Assembly (NCBI GenBank): GCA_022865355.1
Contig: JALHST010000041.1
Span: 1-50,549, forward strand
DNA: 50,549 bases
Direction: 5' to 3'
Source: Maribacter sp.
GTDB taxonomy: Bacteria; Bacteroidota; Bacteroidia; Flavobacteriales; Flavobacteriaceae
Shown: piece after piece, positions 13,203 to 25,256 of the stretch
Layout of the letters: every line of letters starts with the position of its first letter
How positions within the stretch are numbered: position 1 is the stretch's first letter
Translations under genes and position numbers: made by a program
The notes under the pieces: model-generated
Databases searched by the model: none
Seen by the model: only the letters and a program-made list of their open reading frames with translations
Told to the model about the DNA's origin: nothing

Positions 13203-14060
13203 TTAATACGCCAAGCTTAAATCAGTTTTTCGAAGATACTCCGACGGAGTCGTCCCCTTGAGTTTTCTAAATTTTCTATTGAAATTTGATATAGAACTAA
13301 ATCCCGAGCCCTCTGAGATGGCCGCTATTGATGTCTTATTGGGATGAACCAACATTTGACAGGCGTGTTCAATGCGAAGTTCGATCAAAAATTCAAAATA
13401 GGTCTTGTTCGTACGCTGCTTAAAAAACCTACAGAAGGCCGGAGTGGTCATATGGACCAGATTCGCTACTTGGGACAGGGTAATGGTTTGTTCGAAATGA
13501 TTCATCGTATAATCAAAGACCAGTTGTAGTCGTCTTCCTTCAGTATTCGATATTTTTTTAGACGGCACATAGCCGGTGAGTTCAAGTAAGTCGGCCTTAT
13601 TAATTTCATGAATCAATTTTAAAAAAAGGATAAATTTTTGCAACTTACCGACCTTGGGAAGTCTGGACATACTTTGGGTAATCGATTTTTTACCGGATTG
13701 TACCCGCAAACCCCCAATTGATCTTGTGAAAAATCGTTTAATTTCAACAAGTTCCGGAATTTTAAAAAAATCATTTCCTAAACTCTCCGGGGTAAGGAAA
13801 AGTGTGATCATATGCGATTTTCGATCATTTGCCAAACTTTTAAATAAATGGGGGGTATTGCCCCCGATAACAAAAATATCCCCTTTTCCGAATGGGTGCA
13901 CGCTATTGGCAACGATGAGCTTTCCGTTTCCTTCGACAATACAGCTGATTTGTATTTCGGCATGTTGATGTAGTTGGTTATAAAAACTATGCGCTATATC
14001 GACTTGCACTACCAAAGATTGGTCTATGGGTTTTGGTATTTTAAAAGGCCGTACTTTCAT
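13203..14060 (-). CDS. AraC family transcriptional regulator (cupin sensor)
   Basis: A 285-residue regulator. The N-terminal part is a cupin-type ligand-sensing barrel (about 15-100, with QLHQHAEIQ and GKGDIFVIGGNTPHLF). The C-terminal 100 residues hold the two helix-turn-helix motifs of AraC/XylS proteins: TLSQVANLVHMTTPAFCRFFKQ, then SIAAISEGSGFSSISNFNRKFRK, ending with the family signature TPSEYLRK. It is divergent from the DHDPS-family gene across a 166-base region that contains direct repeats. The likely role is induction of the hydroxyproline genes in response to a pathway metabolite (inference from position). Confidence 0.92.
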   Translation of the reverse strand: MKVRPFKIPKPIDQSLVVQVDIAHSFYNQLHQHAEIQISCIVEGNGKLIVANSVHPFGKGDIFVIGGNTPHLFKSLANDRKSHMITLFLTPESLGNDFFKIPELVEIKRFFTRSIGGLRVQSGKKSITQSMSRLPKVGKLQKFILFLKLIHEINKADLLELTGYVPSKKISNTEGRRLQLVFDYTMNHFEQTITLSQVANLVHMTTPAFCRFFKQRTNKTYFEFLIELRIEHACQMLVHPNKTSIAAISEGSGFSSISNFNRKFRKLKGTTPSEYLRKTDLSLAY

Positions 14061-14226: not shown

Positions 14227-15150
14227 ATGAAAGTACAATGGGAAGGCGTAATGCCTGCAGTAACGACCAAATTCACCAAGGACGATGCACTCGATATGAA
14301 AATGTTCGAAGTGAATATAAAAGCGCAGCTCAAGGCGGGAGTGAGTGGTATTATTTTGGGTGGAACCCTCGGTGAGGCAAGTACGTTGACCGATATGGAA
14401 AAAAAGACCCTTATCGAAGAAACTGTGCGTATCGTAGAAGGGAAAATCCCGGTTATCATTAACATCGCCGAACAGACCACGAAAGGTGCCGTGGATGCTG
14501 CCCATAAAGCTGAGAAATATGGGGCAAGCGGCTTAATGATGTTACCACCTATGCGGTATAAGGCCACCGATTTTGAAACGATAACCTATTTTAAGGAGGT
14601 AGCCAAGAATACCGATTTGCCGATCATGATCTATAATAATCCAGTGGATTATAAAATTGAGGTTAGCTTAGACATGTTCGAAGAACTGTTGCACTATACC
14701 AACATTCAAGCAGTAAAGGAATCGACACGTGATATTTCGAACATCAACAGAATTAGGAACCGGTTTGGAAATCGGCTCAAGGTTTTGTGCGGCGTAGATA
14801 CCTTGGCCCTAGAAAGTATCCTTATTGGTGCCGATGGATGGGTTGCCGGACTCGTATGTGCTTTTCCCGAAGAAACCGTCGCCATTCATGAACTGGTAAA
14901 GGCCGGAAGAGTGCAAGAGGCCATTGCCATTTACAGATGGTTCTTGCCGTTATTGGAATTGGATATAAGCCCACAATTGGTACAAAATATAAAATTGGCC
15001 GAAGTAGCCACCGGAATTGGAACCGAAAATGTTCGAGCACCAAGGCTGCCGTTACGGGGCGATGAAAGAAAAAGGGTTTTGAAGATCATCTCCGATAGCT
15101 TGGCGAACCGACCGAAATTGCCCGATTATAAATCTTTAATGCTCTGTTAG
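14227..15150 (+). CDS. DHDPS-family pyrroline-4-hydroxy-2-carboxylate deaminase
   Basis: A 307-residue class I aldolase-fold protein of the DapA/NanA superfamily. The Schiff-base lysine is about K164 (AVKEST) and the catalytic tyrosine about Y136 (IYNNP). The usual GTTGE loop is GTLGEAST here, arguing against lysine-pathway DapA. With an epimerase, a flavoprotein and an aldehyde dehydrogenase downstream, the best call is the deaminase converting 1-pyrroline-4-hydroxy-2-carboxylate to 2-oxoglutarate semialdehyde and ammonia in the cytoplasm. A related possibility in the same superfamily is 2-keto-3-deoxy-L-arabinonate dehydratase, which gives the same product. It is first in the cluster, divergent from the AraC gene. 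Confidence 0.82.
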   Translation: MKVQWEGVMPAVTTKFTKDDALDMKMFEVNIKAQLKAGVSGIILGGTLGEASTLTDMEKKTLIEETVRIVEGKIPVIINIAEQTTKGAVDAAHKAEKYGASGLMMLPPMRYKATDFETITYFKEVAKNTDLPIMIYNNPVDYKIEVSLDMFEELLHYTNIQAVKESTRDISNINRIRNRFGNRLKVLCGVDTLALESILIGADGWVAGLVCAFPEETVAIHELVKAGRVQEAIAIYRWFLPLLELDISPQLVQNIKLAEVATGIGTENVRAPRLPLRGDERKRVLKIISDSLANRPKLPDYKSLMLC

Positions 15151-15407: not shown

Positions 15408-16991
15408 ATGATAAAAGGTGCAAATTATATAGGCGATGAACTATCGGCCAAAGGGGATAAAACGTTTACGACCTTCAATCCTCAGGCCAATAAGGTGACC
15501 GGCTGGACATTTCATGAGGCGACCAAATCCGAAATAGACGCCGCTGTTCTTTTGGCCTCGGAAGCCTTTAACCAATACAAGAAAATATCTGGCAAACTGA
15601 AAGCGCAGTTTTTAAGGACGATAGCAGATGAAATCGAGGCCTTGGGCGATGCCTTGATTCACACATATATAAAAGAATCGGGGCTTCCCATCGGCAGGGC
15701 TCAGGGAGAAAGAGGTCGTACCATCGGACAATTAAAGGCTTTTGCAAAGTTACTCGAAGAAGGTTCCTGGGTTGAGGCGACCATCGATGCGGCAAAACCC
15801 GATAGGGTGCCCCTGCCGAAGGTCGATATGCGAAAAATGCTTTTTCCAGTCGGGCCGGTCGCCATTTTCGGGGCTAGTAATTTTCCCTTTGCTTTTTCTA
15901 CTGCGGGAGGGGATACGGCGAGTGCCTTGGCCGCAGGTTGTCCGGTCATTGTAAAAAGTCATCCCATGCATGCCGGAACGGGCGAACTGGTTGCTTTCGC
16001 CATTACCTTGGCGGCAAAAAAAACGGGCATGCCGAAAGGTGTCTTTTCAAATCTCAACAGTAGTGGAAACGAAGTAGGACAACAGCTGGTCCTACACCCC
16101 AATATAAAAGCAGTGGGTTTTACGGGTAGTTTCAATGGGGGTATGGCACTTTATAAATTGGCCAATGAACGACCAGAGCCCATCCCGGTTTTTGCGGAAA
16201 TGGGAAGCGTCAATCCGGTCGTCGTCCTGCCATCGGCATTGAATGAAAAAGGGATCGATTGGGCGAAGCAGTACGCCGCTTCTATTATGCTCGGGGCCGG
16301 TCAGTTCTGCACCAATCCTGGGTTGATTTTTGGCATTAAGAGTACGTCCTTGGATAATTTCATCAAAACCTTGGGAACCGAAATCGCAACACTGGAGCCC
16401 AATTGCATGTTGCACCCTAACATTCACGGAAATTATGAAAAGGGAAAGGAGGCGCTATCGATTCAGGGGGGTGTGAATGTTGTGGCCGACTACGAATCGG
16501 AAGTACAACCCAATTACGCACGACAAAAAGTGGTTACGGTGAACGGCACCAATTTTTTAAAGAATTCAAAGTTGCACCAGGAAGTCTTTGGACCATTTTC
16601 GGTTATCGTTCGGTGTGAGGATGCCACGGAGCTATCCACTATTTTGAAAGCCTTGGAAGGCCAGTTAACGGGAACTATTCTAGGGTCGGAAGATGAATTA
16701 AGAAAATATGAAAATGTAGTGGAAGCCCTAAAAAGTAGGGTAGGGCGCCTAATATTCAATGGCGTACCCACGGGGGTTGAGGTTTGTCCTTCAATGCAGC
16801 ACGGTGGCCCCTTCCCAGCATCGACCGATAGCAGGTTTACCTCTGTTGGGGAGTCGGCGATCAAACGGTGGGTCAGACCGATATCTTTTCAAAACTGGCC
16901 CCAGGAATTTTTGCCCGATGCCTTGAAAAATTCCAACCCCTTAGGAATAATGCGTCTCGTAGACTCAAAAAATACCAAGTCTGCAATATGA
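15408..16991 (+). CDS. 2-oxoglutarate semialdehyde dehydrogenase (ALDH family)
   Basis: A 527-residue NAD(P)+-dependent aldehyde dehydrogenase. The catalytic cysteine is about C301 (AGQFCTNPG) and the general base about E264 (FAEMGSVNP); cofactor-fold motifs GASNFPFAFS and GFTGS are present. The length and the GSVNP/QFCTNPG variants fit the type III alpha-ketoglutaric semialdehyde dehydrogenase group. It would oxidise 2-oxoglutarate semialdehyde to 2-oxoglutarate, the last step of hydroxyproline breakdown and also of oxidative pentose routes. The stop codon overlaps the next gene's ATG in an ATGA arrangement. Confidence 0.88.
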   Translation: MIKGANYIGDELSAKGDKTFTTFNPQANKVTGWTFHEATKSEIDAAVLLASEAFNQYKKISGKLKAQFLRTIADEIEALGDALIHTYIKESGLPIGRAQGERGRTIGQLKAFAKLLEEGSWVEATIDAAKPDRVPLPKVDMRKMLFPVGPVAIFGASNFPFAFSTAGGDTASALAAGCPVIVKSHPMHAGTGELVAFAITLAAKKTGMPKGVFSNLNSSGNEVGQQLVLHPNIKAVGFTGSFNGGMALYKLANERPEPIPVFAEMGSVNPVVVLPSALNEKGIDWAKQYAASIMLGAGQFCTNPGLIFGIKSTSLDNFIKTLGTEIATLEPNCMLHPNIHGNYEKGKEALSIQGGVNVVADYESEVQPNYARQKVVTVNGTNFLKNSKLHQEVFGPFSVIVRCEDATELSTILKALEGQLTGTILGSEDELRKYENVVEALKSRVGRLIFNGVPTGVEVCPSMQHGGPFPASTDSRFTSVGESAIKRWVRPISFQNWPQEFLPDALKNSNPLGIMRLVDSKNTKSAI

Positions 16992-18730
16992 GAGGAATCT
17001 TCAATAAAATACCATTTAAACTTTGTGTTGGCCTATTACTGGTATTTTGGCAATTTTCTTGCTCTAAAGGAAAAAAGGTAGACGCCTCCCAGCAATTAAA
17101 GGATATTATCGCTTCGGACGAGAATTTTAAATTATATGACTTTGAGGAATATCCCTTAGGTCTTTACGATTCCATTTTGGAAAGGAAAGAGGCGGATTTC
17201 GCAAAAGAACTGCTGGCGCGATTAGATTCGGTGGCAAAAAAAGACTTGACGGAAACCGAAAACATTTCCCTGGCACTTCTGCGGTTTACCCTTCAAAATA
17301 GAGTGGACGAATTTACATATCAAATGTATCTCAATCCCATACAATCGGATCAGGGTTTTCATCTGAATTTGAATTATAGGATCAAACCGATCTTGGATTA
17401 TGCCGATGCCAAGAAATATTTGAAAACCCTGAATGCCATTCCCATGTTTACCGAGCAGCATTTGGTACTGTTGAAGGCAGGCTTGAAAAAAGGACTTTCC
17501 CAACCAAAAATAATCTTTGAAGGATATGAATCGACCTATGATGAACATATCGTTGACAATTATACCGAGAGTAATTTCTATAGCCCATTTGAGAATTTGC
17601 CCGATGCCTTGTCCCAGGATCAGAAAGATTCAGTTTTAACGGCCGCCAAGAAAGCTATTGAGGAGAAAGTGGTGCCCTCTTTCAAAAAAATAAAGAAATT
17701 TTTTGAAGAAGAATATATTCCGAATACCCGAGAATCTATTGGGGTATCGGAGACGCCGAATGGTTCTGAATTTTATCAAAATAGAATCAATTATTATACG
17801 ACTACCGACGAATATACCGCTGAGGATATACACAACATCGGGCTAAAGGAAGTGGCGCGAATCAGGGCCGAGATGGAGAAAATAATTGTCGAGCTGGGCT
17901 TCAAGGGCACATTTGCCGAATTCTTGACGTTTCTCCGAACCGACCCACAGTTTTATGCAAAAACGGGTACCGACTTATTAAAGGACGCCCGGGACATTGC
18001 CAAACGCATCGATGCAGAACTGCCAAAATACTTCATTACCTTGCCAAGAAAGCCCTATGGGGTAAAAAAAGTGCCCGATGCCATTGCGCCGAAGTACACC
18101 GGGGGAAGGTATTCAGGGCCTTCAAGCGATACGCAGCCGGGATATTATTTGGTAAACACCTATAAATTGAATAGCCGCCCGTTGTATGTGCTACCATCCC
18201 TTACCGCCCATGAAGCCGTTCCAGGTCACCATTTACAAGGCGCGCTGAATGCAGAACTTGGGGATAGTATCCCAAAATTTCGAAAAAATCTTTATTTATC
18301 GGCCTATGGGGAAGGGTGGGCATTGTATACCGAATTTTTGGGCAATGATATGGGCATTTATACCACGCCGTACGAGGAGTTTGGAAAGCTGACCTACGAA
18401 ATGTGGCGTGCTTGCCGATTGGTGGTCGATACCGGGATTCATGCCAAAGGGTGGACCAAACAACAGGTTTTGGATTATATGCTAACAAATACTGCCTTGT
18501 CGGAACATGAGGTCAATACCGAAACGGATCGGTATATTGCCTGGCCGGGGCAGGCTATCTCATATAAAATGGGGGAATTAAAAATTCGGGAACTCCGTCA
18601 AAAATGTGAGAAAGCCTTAGGTGCTAAATTCGATATCCGTAAATTTCATGAAATTATCCTTGAACAAGGTACGGTAACGCTTCCTATCTTGGAACAAAGA
18701 ATAAACGCATTTCTCGAATCAAGTAAATAA
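16988..18730 (+). CDS. DUF885 family putative zinc peptidase (lipoprotein)
   Basis: A 580-residue DUF885 protein with a lipoprotein signal (WQFSC lipobox) and the metallopeptidase-like motif HEAVPGHHLQ near residue 410, an HExxxGHH variant of the gluzincin type. Members are thought to hydrolyse peptides, but substrates are poorly known. I chose the ATG at 16988, which overlaps the dehydrogenase stop codon (ATGA) and begins the signal peptide; the frame is open from 16868, but that part lies inside the upstream gene. Placed between hydroxyproline genes, it may release hydroxyproline-containing peptides at the envelope (inference). The epimerase gene follows after 14 bases. Confidence 0.87.
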   Translation: MRGIFNKIPFKLCVGLLLVFWQFSCSKGKKVDASQQLKDIIASDENFKLYDFEEYPLGLYDSILERKEADFAKELLARLDSVAKKDLTETENISLALLRFTLQNRVDEFTYQMYLNPIQSDQGFHLNLNYRIKPILDYADAKKYLKTLNAIPMFTEQHLVLLKAGLKKGLSQPKIIFEGYESTYDEHIVDNYTESNFYSPFENLPDALSQDQKDSVLTAAKKAIEEKVVPSFKKIKKFFEEEYIPNTRESIGVSETPNGSEFYQNRINYYTTTDEYTAEDIHNIGLKEVARIRAEMEKIIVELGFKGTFAEFLTFLRTDPQFYAKTGTDLLKDARDIAKRIDAELPKYFITLPRKPYGVKKVPDAIAPKYTGGRYSGPSSDTQPGYYLVNTYKLNSRPLYVLPSLTAHEAVPGHHLQGALNAELGDSIPKFRKNLYLSAYGEGWALYTEFLGNDMGIYTTPYEEFGKLTYEMWRACRLVVDTGIHAKGWTKQQVLDYMLTNTALSEHEVNTETDRYIAWPGQAISYKMGELKIRELRQKCEKALGAKFDIRKFHEIILEQGTVTLPILEQRINAFLESSK

Positions 18731-18744
18731 CGATCTGATTTCTT

Positions 18745-19755
18745 ATGGCAAGAACTACATTTACTTGCATCGATGCCCATACCTGTGGTAATCCCGTTAG
18801 GGTGGTGGTATCAGGTGGTCCCAAACTTCAAGGAGATACCATGGTAGAAAAAAGACAACATTTTATTAAGGAATACGATTGGATTCGACAAGGCCTAATG
18901 TTCGAACCCCGGGGCCATGACATGATGAGCGGAAGCATTTTTTATCCACCTGCACATCCCGAGAATGACTTTGGAATATTATTTATAGAGACCAGTGGCT
19001 GCTTACCGATGTGCGGTCATGGTACAATTGGGGCAATAACCATCGGTATCGAGGAAGGACTTATTCATCCGAAGACACCTGGAAAGGTGCGTATGGAGAC
19101 GCCGGCAGGATTGGTACACATTGAATATCAACAGTCGGGGAATAAAGTAGATTGGGTTAAACTCACCAATGTTAAATCATACTTGGCAGCAACGGAATTG
19201 TCCGTCGAAAGTTCCGATTTGGGCCCCTTGACCTTCGATGTAGCCTATGGTGGTAATTTTTATGCCATTATCGACCCACAAAAGAATTTTAAGGGGATCC
19301 AGAACTATACCGCTAGTAAATTGATTCAGTTTAGTCAGGAAATAAGAAAAAATATCAATCGCAAATACCCCGATAAATTTATCCATCCCACTGAACCGAC
19401 CATCCGTGATGTGAGCCATATTCTTTGGGCAGGGGAGACCCTGTCCCCCAATGCTACGGCACGCAACGCCGTATTTTATGGCGATAAGGCCATTGATAGG
19501 TCGCCTTGTGGCACAGGAACTTCGGCACGTATGGCGCAGTGGCACGCGCAGGGGAAACTTAAAGTCGGGGAGGAGTTCATTCACGAAAGCTATATCGGCT
19601 CCCAGTTTATAGGCCGGATTGTTGAAGAGACCTTCCTAGCGGCTAGGCCGGCCATTGTGCCAAGCATACAAGGCTGGGCCAAAATATATGGGCATAATAC
19701 CATCGTAATCGATGAAGAAGATGATCCCTATGCCCATGGGTTTCAAGTGATTTGA
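18745..19755 (+). CDS. 4-hydroxyproline 2-epimerase (proline racemase family)
   Basis: A 336-residue member of the proline racemase/epimerase family. Both catalytic residues are cysteines: about C90 in MCGHGTIG and about C255 in DRSPCGTGTSA. A Cys/Cys pair indicates an epimerase or racemase and argues against trans-3-hydroxyproline dehydratase, which has threonine at the first site. It should convert trans-4-hydroxy-L-proline to cis-4-hydroxy-D-proline in the cytoplasm without a cofactor. The neighbouring oxidase, deaminase and dehydrogenase complete that pathway, which makes hydroxyproline more likely than proline as substrate. Gap to the upstream gene is 14 bases. Confidence 0.9.
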   Translation: MARTTFTCIDAHTCGNPVRVVVSGGPKLQGDTMVEKRQHFIKEYDWIRQGLMFEPRGHDMMSGSIFYPPAHPENDFGILFIETSGCLPMCGHGTIGAITIGIEEGLIHPKTPGKVRMETPAGLVHIEYQQSGNKVDWVKLTNVKSYLAATELSVESSDLGPLTFDVAYGGNFYAIIDPQKNFKGIQNYTASKLIQFSQEIRKNINRKYPDKFIHPTEPTIRDVSHILWAGETLSPNATARNAVFYGDKAIDRSPCGTGTSARMAQWHAQGKLKVGEEFIHESYIGSQFIGRIVEETFLAARPAIVPSIQGWAKIYGHNTIVIDEEDDPYAHGFQVI

Positions 19756-19853: not shown

Positions 19854-21101
19854 TTGAAAAATATAGTTATCATAGGTGGGGGTATAATAGGATTAAGTTC
19901 GGCCTATTTTCTGCAAAAGGAAGGCCATAGCGTTACCGTCCTTGATAAATCTGACATCACCTCAGGCGCTTCTTTTGTAAATGCGGGGTATATTACCCCA
20001 AGCCATATCATTCCATTGGCTTCCCCTGGCAAGATTGCCCAAGGAATTAAATGGATGTTCGACTCCTCGAGTCCGTTTTACATTAAACCGCGTTGGGATA
20101 TCGATTTCTTCAAATGGTCCTGGTACTTCCATAAATCATCTACCAAGGAAAAAGTCGAAAAGGCCATTCCGGTTATAAAGGATATCAATATACTGAGCCG
20201 CGGACTATTTGAGGAGATGAAGGCATCGGGGGATATGGGCGATTTTCAATTGGAGAGAAAAGGATTGTTGATGCTTTACAAGACCGATGCTTCTTTTGAA
20301 CATGAAATTGAAGTGGCTCGAAAGGCAAGTTTTTTAGGGTTGGAAGTAAAGGAACTGAATAAGGCCGATCTGGAAAAAATAGAGCCGAATGTAAAAATAG
20401 ATGCCAAAGGGGCCATTCACTATGAATGTGACGGCCATACGACCCCGACCGAGCTGATGCCTAAATTGGTGCACTACCTGAGAAAAGTAGGCGTTGACAT
20501 TCGAACCGATGAGGAAGTTACCGAACTGTCGGTGGCAAATGCCAAGATTACCCGAATTACCACCACAAAAGGCGATTTTACGGCCGACGAAGTGGTATTG
20601 GCAGCGGGATCATGGAGTGCCGACATCTCAAAGAAACTTCATATAAATTTGCCTTTACAGGCAGGTAAAGGATATCGCATAAATGTTTCCAGGCCTACGG
20701 GCATATCGATGCCGGCGATATTAATGGAAGCCAGTATGGCCGTTACCCCTATGAAAGGATTTACCCGTTTTGCGGGCACCATGGAATTTTCAGGCATCAA
20801 TGACCTGATACGGAAAGAAAGGGTACGGGCGATTGTCAAAGGCGCCGAATCTTTTTATCCTGAATTGAAAATCAACGAGACCGAAATGGAAGCCGCTAGA
20901 ACGGGCCTGCGACCGGTTTCCCCTGACGGACTGCCTTATATAGGACGGTCAAAATACGTCAACAATCTGACCTTTGCTACGGGACATGCCATGATGGGTT
21001 GGAGCCTCGGCCCCGCCACTGGGAAGTTAATTTCAGAAATCATCGATAGGAAAAAGACATCGATGGATATTAGCGCCTTTCACCCTGATCGCAAATTTTA
21101 A
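19854..21101 (+). CDS. FAD-dependent D-hydroxyproline dehydrogenase (DadA-like)
   Basis: A 415-residue DAO-superfamily flavoprotein. The N-terminal dinucleotide fold reads IVIIGGGIIGLSSAYFL, and a C-terminal FAD contact is near TGLRPVSPDGLPYIGR and GHAMMGWSLGPATGKL. By context it oxidises cis-4-hydroxy-D-proline to 1-pyrroline-4-hydroxy-2-carboxylate, passing electrons to the respiratory chain. The start is TTG at 19854: an in-frame TGA lies at 19848-19850, and any later ATG would delete the FAD-binding strand. A general D-amino acid dehydrogenase is the alternative. It is the last gene of the core pathway; an antisense gene overlaps its end by 4 bases. Confidence 0.87.
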   Translation: MKNIVIIGGGIIGLSSAYFLQKEGHSVTVLDKSDITSGASFVNAGYITPSHIIPLASPGKIAQGIKWMFDSSSPFYIKPRWDIDFFKWSWYFHKSSTKEKVEKAIPVIKDINILSRGLFEEMKASGDMGDFQLERKGLLMLYKTDASFEHEIEVARKASFLGLEVKELNKADLEKIEPNVKIDAKGAIHYECDGHTTPTELMPKLVHYLRKVGVDIRTDEEVTELSVANAKITRITTTKGDFTADEVVLAAGSWSADISKKLHINLPLQAGKGYRINVSRPTGISMPAILMEASMAVTPMKGFTRFAGTMEFSGINDLIRKERVRAIVKGAESFYPELKINETEMEAARTGLRPVSPDGLPYIGRSKYVNNLTFATGHAMMGWSLGPATGKLISEIIDRKKTSMDISAFHPDRKF

Positions 21102-21529
21102 CAAGAAGAATCTGCTACTATTTTCCATTGCCCATCAATGCGCCTAAAAATTATTAGAAAAGTCCCGTGGGCATTTCCCACCTCCCGGGTCAAATGATAT
21201 TGCCCCATCACCCAATAGGCATCATCGCTTATCTTCGTAATATCATCGATAATGAAATTCAAATTACCAGTCTCCGCCTTGCCCGGGTAGCGTTTTTTAT
21301 AATTGGCCAGTGTGGGCTCCCATCCTCTTGTTAGACCATTGCTTCCGTAGAATTTTAAGGAATCGGATTTCCAATAGCCATCCATGAAGGCGTCAATATC
21401 GTTCAATGACCAAGCTTTCCGCTGTTCATCCAAAATAGATTTAATTGCCAGGATATCAGCCTTTTCATCAGTCTGTTTGGTACAAGAAATAACAATAAGG
21501 GCCATTAGTAGAATTTGTATAGGTTTCAT
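21098..21529 (-). CDS. DUF4440 / NTF2-like lipoprotein
   Basis: A 143-residue small lipoprotein (lipobox IVISC) with a SnoaL/NTF2-like cone fold of the DUF4440 type, seen in EQRKAWSLNDIDAFMDGYW near the start and FRRIDGQWKIVADSSC at the end. Such proteins are usually ligand-binding or of unknown function. It faces the hydroxyproline operon, overlapping the flavoprotein stop by 4 bases, so it interrupts the rightward gene run. No promoter element was clear upstream. Confidence 0.8.
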   Translation of the reverse strand: MKPIQILLMALIVISCTKQTDEKADILAIKSILDEQRKAWSLNDIDAFMDGYWKSDSLKFYGSNGLTRGWEPTLANYKKRYPGKAETGNLNFIIDDITKISDDAYWVMGQYHLTREVGNAHGTFLIIFRRIDGQWKIVADSSC

Positions 21530-21708
21530 ATTAAAATGTTTTTGCGAAGTAAGTTACCAAAATCGCTTGATAAAATTTCCATAGGTAATGTTTGTTATTT
21601 TATCGTGTGTAAATTAATTCTTTGCTATCTTGTTTATCATTTGAAAGACCCATTGATCAATGCGCTTTAAAAGTTGATCAGGGGAAGGCATGATACAAGT
21701 AAAAATCT

Positions 21709-22539
21709 ATGAAAATTTATAAGACAAAGAATGGAGCGGTCGTTGAACTCAAAAATAATTTTTACTATAAGGAGCCGGTAAATTGGGATACCCTGGTAAA
21801 TCGAAAAGATCTACACGGCGTCTTGCTTAACGATATAAAGAAATGGTCAAGGCTGCAAAATTTTGAGATAGATACCAATATTCAAGCGCCTATAGCGAAT
21901 CAGGAAATTTGGGCCTCGGGGGTTACTTATAAGCGCAGTAGGGAGGCTCGTATGGAGGAATCCAAAAAAGCAGGCGGAGGCTCATTTTATGACCGGGTAT
22001 ATGATGCCGATCGCCCGGAATTATTTTTCAAGGCGACGCCGGCGAGAACGGTTGGAAATGGTGGAAAGGTGCGAATCAGAAAAGATTCGACCTGGGACGT
22101 GCCGGAACCTGAGTTAACCCTCTTTATTTGTTCGGAAGGAAGTATCGAGGGCTATACCATTGGTAATGATATGAGTTCGCGCAGTATAGAGGGCGAAAAT
22201 CCCTTATACCTTCCCCAGGCGAAAACCTATGATGGATGCGCAGGCCTTGGGCCGTGCATTTATGTGCCCGAAAAGCCGATCGCCCCTGAATCGATGATCT
22301 CCTTGGAGATTTTTCGAAAGAAAGGGAGCATTTTTAAGGGTCAGATCGCTATCAGCAATATGAAACGGAAACATCAGGAGTTGGTAGGGTTTCTGTTTCG
22401 GGAATGTAGCTTTCCAAAAGGGGTTTTTCTGATGACCGGTACCGGTATTATTCCCCCCGATGAATTTACCTTGAAATCCGGAGATGAAATTCGAATTCAG
22501 ATCGAGCACATAGGTGTCTTGGTGAATTTCGTTGCCTAG
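21709..22539 (+). CDS. FAH-family protein, 2-keto-3-deoxypentonate dehydratase-like
   Basis: A 276-residue fumarylacetoacetate hydrolase-fold protein. Segments such as WASGVTYKRSREAR, YDADRPELFFKA, PEPELTLFI, SRSIEGENPLYLPQ and TGTGI closely resemble, from memory, the archaeal 2-keto-3-deoxy-D-arabinonate dehydratase (KdaD/AraD1 group) rather than true fumarylacetoacetase. The glutamates in PEPEL are expected Mg2+ ligands. The KdaD reaction yields 2-oxoglutarate semialdehyde, the substrate of the dehydrogenase at 15408-16991, which explains its presence here. No sugar dehydrogenase or pentonate dehydratase is in the window, so the true substrate is uncertain. It lies 170 bases past the antisense DUF4440 gene. 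Confidence 0.83.
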   Translation: MKIYKTKNGAVVELKNNFYYKEPVNWDTLVNRKDLHGVLLNDIKKWSRLQNFEIDTNIQAPIANQEIWASGVTYKRSREARMEESKKAGGGSFYDRVYDADRPELFFKATPARTVGNGGKVRIRKDSTWDVPEPELTLFICSEGSIEGYTIGNDMSSRSIEGENPLYLPQAKTYDGCAGLGPCIYVPEKPIAPESMISLEIFRKKGSIFKGQIAISNMKRKHQELVGFLFRECSFPKGVFLMTGTGIIPPDEFTLKSGDEIRIQIEHIGVLVNFVA

Positions 22540-22638
22540 GGTAACCTAAATTATTGAAGGAGGTAGCGTCGAATAATTCAATTCCTATGTTTTATCTTTA
22601 ATTGTTTTTTTTAAGTTGAAATCTTAATTTTAGGGAAT

Positions 22639-23517
22639 ATGGCGACACAGCGAGATCTTGCGGAAACTCATGAACTGGTTTCTAATATATTTAGGATACC
22701 AAAGACCAAATCAGAATGGGAGCCCTATCGATTGACCGATGATCAGGTGGGGCATTTTCATGAATATGGCTATGTATCGGGCATACAATTGCTGGATGAT
22801 ACCCAAATCGCCATTTTACGCAAGGAACTCGCCGAGGTAATGGATCCGAAACACCCTGGGCATGGTTTGTTCTATGAGTTTCACAGCAATGAATCAAGCG
22901 ATCCAAATTCGGTATTATTCCATTCCTTGGGCCATTGGCGAATTTCGGAAGGCTTTCACGATGTACTATGGAACCCTGCTTTTCTGATGGCCGCCTACCA
23001 GCTTTTAGGGAATAAACCCGTTCGTTTTTGGCACGACCAGCTCTTTTATAAACCGGCAAAGCACGGCGGCGTTGTGGCTTGGCATCAGGATTATTCGTAT
23101 TGGACCCGAACGGTCGCCATGCAGCATCTAACGTGTTGGACTGGTCTTGACGATGCGAGTACTGAAAATGGATGCCTCTACTATATTCCAAAAAGCCATA
23201 CATGGGGTTTGTTGAATGCCCCTGAGTTAGCGGGAAACATGGAAGGCATCAAAGATTACCTCTCGCCTGGACAACTAGCTGAATTTAAACCCATCCCCAT
23301 CGAATTGAAAAAGGGGTATGCCACGTTTCATCATCCTTTGATGGTGCATGGTTCCTATGAAAATACCTCGAGTAGAAGTAGAAGGGCTTTTGTCCTGAAC
23401 GTTTTTGCCGATGGGACGATCAGCAATACCGATGATGAATTATTGAAAGGCGTACCCCCGATTCCTAAAGGCGGGAAAATGCAGGGTAAATTTTTCCCTT
23501 TGCTATTTAAAGGATAG
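22639..23517 (+). CDS. Phytanoyl-CoA dioxygenase (PhyH) family protein
   Basis: A 292-residue Fe(II)/2-oxoglutarate-dependent oxygenase. The metal facial triad is visible: H149 and D151 in WHQDYSYW and about H237 in MVHGSYENTSSRSRRAF, whose arginines are expected to hold 2-oxoglutarate. PhyH proteins hydroxylate small molecules including amino acid derivatives, so the substrate cannot be assigned. The gene follows the FAH-family gene in the same direction after 99 bases. A product route into 2-oxoglutarate semialdehyde is a reasonable inference. It converges on the flavoprotein gene at 23556 with no visible terminator. Confidence 0.85.
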   Translation: MATQRDLAETHELVSNIFRIPKTKSEWEPYRLTDDQVGHFHEYGYVSGIQLLDDTQIAILRKELAEVMDPKHPGHGLFYEFHSNESSDPNSVLFHSLGHWRISEGFHDVLWNPAFLMAAYQLLGNKPVRFWHDQLFYKPAKHGGVVAWHQDYSYWTRTVAMQHLTCWTGLDDASTENGCLYYIPKSHTWGLLNAPELAGNMEGIKDYLSPGQLAEFKPIPIELKKGYATFHHPLMVHGSYENTSSRSRRAFVLNVFADGTISNTDDELLKGVPPIPKGGKMQGKFFPLLFKG

Positions 23518-23555
23518 GCGTATTTAAAAATCGAACGTATGGCCCAACTTCGTCA

Positions 23556-25256
23556 TTAGACCGATTTTTTTTCTCTTTTTGAAGCTTCCTTCGATTTTCT
23601 AACCTGTATTTTGTTCAACATCCAGGCGGGATAATCTGTGGCATCCTCCGCCTCGTAGATCCTCAATTCCTGTGTATCATCGTGCAGTAAAAGCTCATCC
23701 GCTTTTTTCCGCAATATTAAGGCGGCGGTATTCACCCCCGAATGGGAGGCGCCGGCGACGCCGTGAGAGAGGATACTGGCCCCGCATAGATAGAGATTTT
23801 CTATTTCGCTTTTGGCCTTGAAGGCAAACGGACCGATATGCATAAGGCTCTTTTCGGTCCCATAGACATTACCTCGGGTGGTATTGATGTAATATTCATT
23901 GGTAATCGGTGTCCCCAGTTCCTGATGCACAATATGATCGCGTATTCCCGGAACAACCTTTTCAAGGCCGTTCAACATCTTTTGGATCAATCGTTCCTTA
24001 AAATGTAAATACGCCAAGGACCGCTCGCTATCCTCATGTTCAAACGGTTCAAAGGCGGTATAATCGATGAAGGTTATTGCTTCGATCGTATGATGCTTGC
24101 CATCGAAGCTTGTTGGGTCCTTTAGTGTAGTACAACTAATGAACATGCCCTCGAAAGTTTCCCCGGCTTTAATATTGCCCTTCATCATTGAATCATAAAG
24201 TTCATCTACATCCTTATTGGGCATCAACCATATGTTTCCTGAATCGAGTCCTGCAGCTCGTAGATCCATTGCGACGTTTAAAAAAAGCATTAGCGAAGTG
24301 CAGGAATATTTCGTTTTACGAAGCTTTTTATAGAGTTTTTTGCTAATATGTTCCTGTCCCACCAAGTTGAGATAGGTCAAGCCTACATCGGCATTGGAGA
24401 TAATATGTTTAGCGTAGTATGAGCGACCGTTTTCAAGAAGGACGCCTACGGCCTTTTTTTTCCTTTCCCCTTCTATCAGGATACGTTTCACACTTTGATG
24501 GGTACGTATTTCCCCGCCATATTTCTTTATGGCGTTGGTCATTGATTTTATCAATGCCCCACCACCGCCCATAGGGTAATAGCCCCCTTTAAAATAATGT
24601 TCCATTACCGCACAATGCAATGGAAAACTTGCTTTTCGCGGTTGCAGGCCATGATCGCCACATTGTATGTTCAGGATATTCTTTAACAAGGGGTCCTTGA
24701 TGTGCCAATTGATAACCCGACGAAGGCTGAAAAGTCCAAACTTCCCCATATGACGCGTTCGATAAGGCACGGTAATATTCTCCCAAAATCCACTTAATTT
24801 TGGAATAAGCTGCAATTGAGTACTTACATTACGCACCAACTGAAGATATTTATGTATGCGTTTTTTTTCCTTGGGAAACCGAAGGGAAAGTCGATCAATG
24901 AGATCTTCCAGATTAGATGGGAAATCAAATCGTTCATCACCGATCCAACAATGCTCATAGCCATCGGGATTCATTCTGAAGAAAACCAGGTCATTGGCAA
25001 TCCCTAGCCCTTTGTATAGGTTATTGGTAGATTCACCTTCACCTAATAATCCAACATAATGTACCCCAGGAGTAAAGCGATGGCCGTTTAGATAAAAACT
25101 ATGGCACCATCCTCCTGGAACATCGTGTTGTTCCAAGACCAGGACCTTTTGACCTTCCCGGGCAAGACAAATGGCAGTTGCAAGGCCACCAGCACCAGAT
25201 CCGATGATGATCGCGTCAAAATGATCCGGCAATACGCCATGGTGTTCTTCTCGCAA
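23556..25256 (-). CDS. RetSat/CrtI-like FAD-dependent oxidoreductase
   Basis: A 566-residue flavoprotein of the phytoene desaturase/amine oxidase superfamily. The N-terminal FAD site reads AIIIGSGAGGLATAICLAREG with the downstream GGWCHSF and GVHYVG motifs typical of carotenoid isomerases and all-trans-retinol 13,14-reductases. The C-terminal GASILSHGVAGASHSGVNTA is the second FAD motif. It likely reduces or isomerises a polyene or unsaturated lipid; no other carotenoid gene lies nearby. The C-terminal 50 residues are charged and lysine-rich. It is the last of a leftward gene group, about 36 bases after the GDSL gene. Confidence 0.85.
   Translation of the reverse strand: MREEHHGVLPDHFDAIIIGSGAGGLATAICLAREGQKVLVLEQHDVPGGWCHSFYLNGHRFTPGVHYVGLLGEGESTNNLYKGLGIANDLVFFRMNPDGYEHCWIGDERFDFPSNLEDLIDRLSLRFPKEKKRIHKYLQLVRNVSTQLQLIPKLSGFWENITVPYRTRHMGKFGLFSLRRVINWHIKDPLLKNILNIQCGDHGLQPRKASFPLHCAVMEHYFKGGYYPMGGGGALIKSMTNAIKKYGGEIRTHQSVKRILIEGERKKKAVGVLLENGRSYYAKHIISNADVGLTYLNLVGQEHISKKLYKKLRKTKYSCTSLMLFLNVAMDLRAAGLDSGNIWLMPNKDVDELYDSMMKGNIKAGETFEGMFISCTTLKDPTSFDGKHHTIEAITFIDYTAFEPFEHEDSERSLAYLHFKERLIQKMLNGLEKVVPGIRDHIVHQELGTPITNEYYINTTRGNVYGTEKSLMHIGPFAFKAKSEIENLYLCGASILSHGVAGASHSGVNTAALILRKKADELLLHDDTQELRIYEAEDATDYPAWMLNKIQVRKSKEASKREKKSV

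Follow-up and report, generated by a model that had tools for sequence, protein, structure and literature searches.

The 50,549-nucleotide contig JALHST010000041.1 of Maribacter sp. (Flavobacteriaceae; assembly GCA_022865355.1), referred to here as the window, carries downstream of a hydroxyproline-type operon two intact open reading frames (ORFs) on the + strand, the first coding for a FAH-superfamily protein (FAH; 21709-22539; 276 aa; Pfam FAA_hydrolase, E 2.9e-14) and the second for a PhyH-type Fe(II)/2-oxoglutarate oxygenase (PhyH; 22639-23517; 292 aa; Pfam PhyH, E 4.4e-33). With moderate confidence we read this neighbourhood as two modules standing side by side, in which FAH would serve a Weimberg-type route that shares the probable 2-oxoglutarate semialdehyde dehydrogenase (KGSADH) of the hydroxyproline operon (15408-16991; + strand; Pfam Aldedh), and PhyH would belong to a separate family often found in carbohydrate gene clusters. 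A first-pass annotation of the window had called both genes, which proved real, and had suggested that they form one pathway for an unusual substrate, which the results below make unlikely.

Judged from its sequence, modelled fold and conserved residues, FAH is probably a KdaD-type 2-keto-3-deoxypentonate dehydratase. The closest solved sequence was that of 2-keto-3-deoxy-D-arabinonate dehydratase (KdaD; 2q18_X, E 3.3e-58), followed by 9kkt (1.8e-17) and 8sky (8.5e-5). An AlphaFold model of FAH was built from 38 sequences (pLDDT 89.6), and a fold search with this model returned the KdaD entries 2q1a, 2q19, 2q18 and 2q1d first (TM 0.84-0.88 by query length; the best match at 0.88 with 35% identity) and then 9kkv and 9kkt, the title of which is readable as far as "2-keto-3-deoxy-D-xylo". 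In both sequence and fold the closest relative was thus KdaD and no C-C hydrolase, and matches to NCBIfam models were weak. Residues E104, E133, E135, D154 and K172 were invariant across 38 aligned rows and aligned with E114, E143, E145, D164 and K182 of KdaD, which we take to be its metal-binding and catalytic residues; the KdaD structure presumably stems from Sulfolobus solfataricus. The resemblance to KdaD, already pointed out in the first-pass annotation, is therefore borne out by all three lines of evidence, and FAH did not group with unrelated hydrolases. The window protein differs from KdaD in being bacterial and 17 residues shorter than the 293-residue KdaD chain, and unlike KdaD its family is linked to ILVD/EDD dehydratase and KGSADH genes and, here, to hydroxyproline genes. 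According to the available part of a study of Herbaspirillum huttiense (PMC6336799), C785_RS13680 and C785_RS13710 are FAH-type D- and L-2-keto-3-deoxypentonate dehydratases; these belong to the same superfamily as the window FAH and their product is 2-oxoglutarate semialdehyde, and set against them the window FAH matches the archaeal dehydratase well.

The distribution of these genes was determined in 397 genomes of the family, with the genome sets for statistical tests compiled by hand and not corrected for kinship. FAH was counted at >=49% identity, PhyH at E <= 1e-20, KGSADH at E <= 1e-90 (top three candidates scored per genome) and, as a control gene, an alcohol dehydrogenase (ADH) of the FoADH type at E <= 1e-100 (top four candidates scored). 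By these thresholds FAH was present in 43 genomes, excluding five that had only a match at E 1e-21 to 1e-24 to a distinct type of about 400 aa, PhyH in 40, FoADH-type ADH in 40 and KGSADH in 225. KGSADH was found in all 43 FAH genomes compared to 225 of the 397 overall (Fisher p 4e-12), and in 26 of the 40 genomes with the control gene (p 0.17). The window's genome had one KGSADH match at E <= 1e-90 (three of five candidates scored), namely the gene of the hydroxyproline operon. The top NCBIfam model for this protein was 2,5-dioxovalerate dehydrogenase at 113.5 bits, and because this lies far below the cut-off of 750 the name KGSADH is one that we infer.

The first-pass annotation had stated that no upstream pentose enzymes are present, which holds for the window; elsewhere in the genome, contig C307 encodes a candidate ILVD/EDD dehydratase next to a GntP-type permease (gntP 301 vs 292.75 bits). 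The candidate was recovered through its 71% identity to the ILVD/EDD dehydratase of Ohtaekwangia (L028), the gene of which adjoins FAH and KGSADH. It scored 838.3 against the NCBIfam model for L-arabinonate dehydratase, under the cut-off of 882, and passed the broader model PRK06131 (892 vs 539). It is also adjoined by genes for an SDR and a TIM-barrel (AP_endonuc_2) protein; sugar dehydrogenase and lactonase genes were not searched for as such. Candidates for the three enzymes of a Weimberg-type route thus occur in one genome, with ILVD/EDD on C307 and FAH and KGSADH in the window. An orthologue of this ILVD/EDD gene was detected in 35 of the 43 FAH genomes and in two of 37 control genomes (p 1e-12), which were picked by hand, all above 3 Mb, from the 182 KGSADH-positive, FAH-negative genomes; the two controls that have the orthologue (G151 and G211) carry the other FAH type of about 400 aa.

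The genomic context of FAH was examined in the best 80 of 580 confirmed loci from a scan of genome contigs, which by title were mostly from Bacteroidota, with a few from KSB1, Acidobacteria, Verrucomicrobia and Ignavibacteriales. For the tree and the counts 79 of them were used (L087 was left out because its FAH ORF was missed in ORF calling), some being short contigs. Neighbours were labelled by BLAST against reference genes, the majority of which had been scanned with Pfam or NCBIfam models, and the pathway names are our reading of these labels. KGSADH was located within 10 kb of FAH in 37 of the 79 loci, directly adjoining on the same strand in 28, and ILVD/EDD within the same distance in 19. 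In 20 further FAH regions drawn from the family genomes, ILVD/EDD, permease, FAH and KGSADH occurred together in four (L201-L204; an unbroken run in L201 and L203), the permease label being based on 28-31% identity to a reference gene that is related to GntP of the window's own genome; ILVD/EDD was directly next to FAH in L199 and L208, and FAH was at the hydroxyproline operon in three (L191, L193 and L195). The combination of ILVD/EDD, KGSADH and FAH in other Bacteroidota is the known Weimberg-type route. Because FAH is KdaD-like, KGSADH is present in all FAH genomes and FAH is part of runs with ILVD/EDD, permease and KGSADH in relatives, the earlier suggestion that FAH offers a second route into 2-oxoglutarate semialdehyde is likely to be correct.

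In the proposed scheme, the upstream step would be carried out by the ILVD/EDD sugar-acid dehydratase encoded beside the GntP-type permease on C307, FAH would, as KdaD, use a divalent metal and dehydrate a 2-keto-3-deoxypentonate to 2-oxoglutarate semialdehyde, and the KGSADH of the hydroxyproline operon would oxidize the semialdehyde to 2-oxoglutarate. The substrate of FAH would most likely derive from L-arabinonate or D-xylonate; given the GntP-type permease, the free sugar acid may be what the cell takes up. A Weimberg-type route would thus be split over two contigs, with its last enzyme in common with hydroxyproline breakdown, and PhyH would constitute a second module, an active-looking Fe(II)/2-oxoglutarate oxygenase with no part in the FAH route. 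We consider the split route ending in a shared KGSADH the most economical reading. It builds on observed homology, fold, residue conservation, co-occurrence and gene content of the genome, from which the substrates, the flow between modules and the chemistry of PhyH are deduced.

It is improbable, in our estimate, that FAH instead acts on another 2-keto-3-deoxy acid derived from uronates or L-fucose, with no 2-oxoglutarate semialdehyde being made; it could, for instance, be a lyase or hydrolase that helps to degrade mannonate or fuconate. Such a role would fit the presence of UxuA within 10 kb of FAH in seven of the 79 loci and of fucose-type genes in 13 (hydroxyproline genes were found in five and PhyH in three), and in several of the closest relatives a D-mannonate-oxidoreductase-type SDR is directly divergent from FAH. 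The KdaD-type residues and fold and the linkage to KGSADH and ILVD/EDD argue against it, as does the fucose cluster of L034, in which a separate FAH protein with 2,4-didehydro-3-deoxy-L-rhamnonate hydrolase as its best model (343.5 of 500 bits) is encoded near the one studied here.

Several observations nevertheless weigh against a FAH route of the Weimberg type that is independent of PhyH. In the FAH tree the window protein grouped with FAH proteins of Flavobacteriaceae encoded at the hydroxyproline operon or beside UxuA and a D-mannonate-oxidoreductase-type SDR (support 84, not starred), and these nearest relatives adjoin UxuA and D-mannonate oxidoreductase or a sulfatase-type gene and not ILVD/EDD, so that another 2-keto-3-deoxy acid is possible. 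The ILVD/EDD orthologue was absent from eight of the 43 FAH genomes, and 26 of the 79 loci, some of them short contigs, were without any labelled partner. These 26 include a FAH clade of 12 rows, made up of Dyadobacter (L051, L060, L063, L064, L073, L074, L080, L082, L088 and L089) and relatives (L040 and L046), which has no labelled KGSADH or ILVD/EDD within 10 kb and a partly conserved neighbourhood of its own. KGSADH was also present in all 40 PhyH genomes (p 3e-11), and the association of FAH with KGSADH may therefore partly reflect shared ancestry or lifestyle; its presence moreover rests on the three candidates scored per genome. Finally, FAH and PhyH lie within about 12 kb of each other in 10 of the 28 genomes that have both, which is above chance, although related genomes are not independent.

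This last observation bears on whether the two window genes form a joint pathway, in which PhyH would oxidize an unusual substrate and FAH would make 2-oxoglutarate semialdehyde from the product, feeding KGSADH. The search for the gene pair in other genomes, as proposed by the first-pass annotation, found FAH and PhyH together in 28 genomes (p 7e-23), and this co-occurrence, the universal presence of KGSADH with PhyH, the spacing of up to about 12 kb and the adjacency of the two genes in G000, G401 and G244 are what a joint pathway would lead one to expect. Against this, adjacency was restricted to those three of the 28 shared genomes, 12 of the 40 PhyH genomes lacked FAH and 15 of the 43 FAH genomes lacked PhyH, the wider scan placed PhyH within 10 kb of FAH in three of 79 loci, PhyH often stands beside other sugar genes, and a candidate upstream dehydratase for FAH exists in the window's own genome. 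We hence regard a joint pathway as very unlikely.

Alternatively, the two genes could be close because the site that lies between the amine-oxidase/GDSL genes and the hydroxyproline operon is a hot spot for insertions, the contents of which have no joint function. The site differs among relatives: L019, L023 and L024 have FAH and a sulfatase-type gene there, L020 has UxuA-SDR in addition to these two, and L149 and L150 have a sulfatase-FAH-PhyH arrangement, so that the partner of FAH varies. On the other hand, the site is often occupied by carbohydrate genes, and closeness to KGSADH could be of benefit to FAH; we rate a hot spot without joint function as possible but rather doubtful.

For PhyH, 42 places were compiled, comprising the window, 40 fetched orthologues and a broken second copy in G155 that was not counted. 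The residues H149-x-D151, H237 and R248 did not vary across 41 rows (the window sequence plus the 40 fetched orthologues); we take H149, D151 and H237 to be the metal triad and R248 to be the arginine that binds 2-oxoglutarate. The predicted structure was derived from three sequences and was too poor for a fold search (mean pLDDT 40.4). The closest solved sequence was the RNA-editing complex protein RESC14 (PDB 8fnc chain 14, E 4.7e-32), which in the alignment has Q and N where PhyH has the H and D of its metal site. A second, distant PhyH-type gene is located in the window's own genome on contig C184 (L277:9307-10131; 33-35% identity) and retains the H/D/H/R residues.

The commonest labelled neighbours of PhyH were L-galactose/L-fucose-type genes, with at least two of six families within 10 kb of 20 of the 40 fetched copies. 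Within the same distance FoADH-type ADH/esterase genes were found at 11 copies, sulfatase at 10, FAH at eight, sialic-acid-type genes at seven, GH29 at five, sets that we read as a 3,6-anhydro-L-galactose route at four, P450 at three and hydroxyproline genes at two; nine copies had none of these labels. In L163 (5740-16270) a PhyH orthologue is clustered with an N-acylglucosamine 2-epimerase (above the NCBIfam cut-off), a lyase-like DHDPS protein (below it), a BNR sialidase-like protein and a SASA esterase, a set suggestive of sialic-acid breakdown that includes an oxygenase; parts of this set also accompany PhyH in L172, L174, L180 and L181. The PhyH family thus often resides in carbohydrate clusters and probably has a job separate from that of FAH.

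From the neighbourhood analysis we tentatively suggest, well short of even confidence, that the PhyH family represents a new class of one-component Fe(II)/2-oxoglutarate sugar O-demethylases in marine Flavobacteriia, which would replace or complement the three-component P450 system, act on O-methylated algal sugars of the galactan or fucose type and release formaldehyde; the window PhyH would do the same away from its partner genes. The ADH encoded beside PhyH matches 8h2a (E 3.4e-189) and 8h2b (E 3.5e-172), which are FoADH and ZoADH, respectively (Brott 2023, PMC10033563), and is thus of the FoADH/ZoADH type. The available part of that study reports that during use of 6-O-methyl-D-galactose an ADH of this type is clustered with a P450, its redox partners and an esterase, that a knock-out of the ADH impairs growth on this sugar, and that, with the thiols that were tried, the enzyme type shows no turnover of formaldehyde; neither "dioxygenase" nor "2-oxoglutarate" appears in that part of the text. 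Compared with these clusters of P450, ferredoxin, reductase, ADH and esterase, the same ADH type and an esterase stand by 11 of the 40 PhyH orthologues, where PhyH replaces the P450 or stands beside it. Among the literature matches listed, with titles and openings of abstracts covered and most subscription literature outside, none tied PhyH-type dioxygenases to the breakdown of O-methyl sugars or porphyran.

To survey this arrangement from the side of the ADH, 20-kb regions of all 40 ADH genomes were labelled, P450 genes elsewhere in the genomes not being searched for. An esterase of the same type was present in all 40 regions, accompanied by P450 only in 24, PhyH only in eight, both in three and neither in five; Pfam scans of a few representatives bore out the P450, ferredoxin and reductase labels. 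A same-strand run of P450, ferredoxin, reductase, ADH, esterase and PhyH was observed in L157 (4688-10381) and L179 (4731-10449), and likewise in L177, in which no ferredoxin ORF was called; L260, from the genus of L177 and L179, has this run without PhyH. In L243, L246, L255, L256 and L259, ADH and esterase had no labelled P450 or PhyH within the 20 kb, and another oxygenase may be present. Mutual exclusion of P450 and PhyH was ruled out by the three loci with both. On the PhyH tree the link to ADH requires five changes, at least three of them forced by well-supported branches, and is therefore not one frozen arrangement. We also considered ADH and esterase as a formaldehyde-detoxifying FrmA/FrmB pair and rejected this, since the ADH type is reported to be inactive on formaldehyde in the available part of the source (PMC10033563) and the esterase matched S-formylglutathione hydrolase weakly (48 of 281.7 bits).

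Other results speak against the demethylase function. The window's genome yielded no FoADH-type ADH at E <= 1e-100 (four of 19 candidates scored), no partner ADH and esterase adjoin the window PhyH, and 29 of the 40 fetched copies were without a nearby FoADH-type ADH. PhyH may instead hydroxylate another sugar or an amino acid, which fits the link between PhyH and KGSADH in all 40 genomes at least as well as demethylation.

The remaining genes of the hydroxyproline-type operon 5' of FAH encode an AraC-type regulator, probably of this operon (13203-14060; - strand; Pfam HTH_18), a DHDPS-family protein that, from its place in the operon, is probably the hydroxyproline-pathway deaminase (14227-15150; + strand; Pfam DHDPS, E 1.5e-59), a 4-hydroxyproline epimerase (18745-19755; + strand; NCBIfam NF010578, 580 bits with a cut-off of 376) and a FAD-dependent oxidoreductase, probably a D-hydroxyproline dehydrogenase (19854-21101; + strand; Pfam DAO, E 4.6e-63). 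A DUF885 protein (16868-18730; E 1.5e-161) is also encoded within the operon and overlaps the KGSADH ORF by 124 bp if its first start is used. FAH is separated from the operon by a DUF4440 gene on the - strand (21098-21529; Pfam DUF4440), which is retained in several relatives (L019, L023 and L024), and from PhyH by a gap of 99 bp; a promoter and terminator scan of 21000-23700, which does not cover Bacteroidota promoters, found none in this gap. The window thus has the same kinds of genes as the known hydroxyproline operon (epimerase, dehydrogenase, deaminase and KGSADH) and adds to it an adjoining FAH, so that one KGSADH may serve two routes.

Once the whole genome is read, the chemistry of FAH is probably ordinary and the gene arrangement a variant. 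In this organism hydroxyproline breakdown and a sugar-acid route could have one dehydrogenase in common, and annotation that seeks single operons would miss a route split over loci in this way. The removal of methyl ethers is tied to P450 in the available part of Brott 2023 (PMC10033563); if the PhyH family does act as a demethylase, marine bacteria would have a second, simpler way of removing methyl ethers from the sugars of algal polysaccharides, and the role of the as yet unexplained FoADH/ZoADH-type ADH and its esterase could be approached from a new side.
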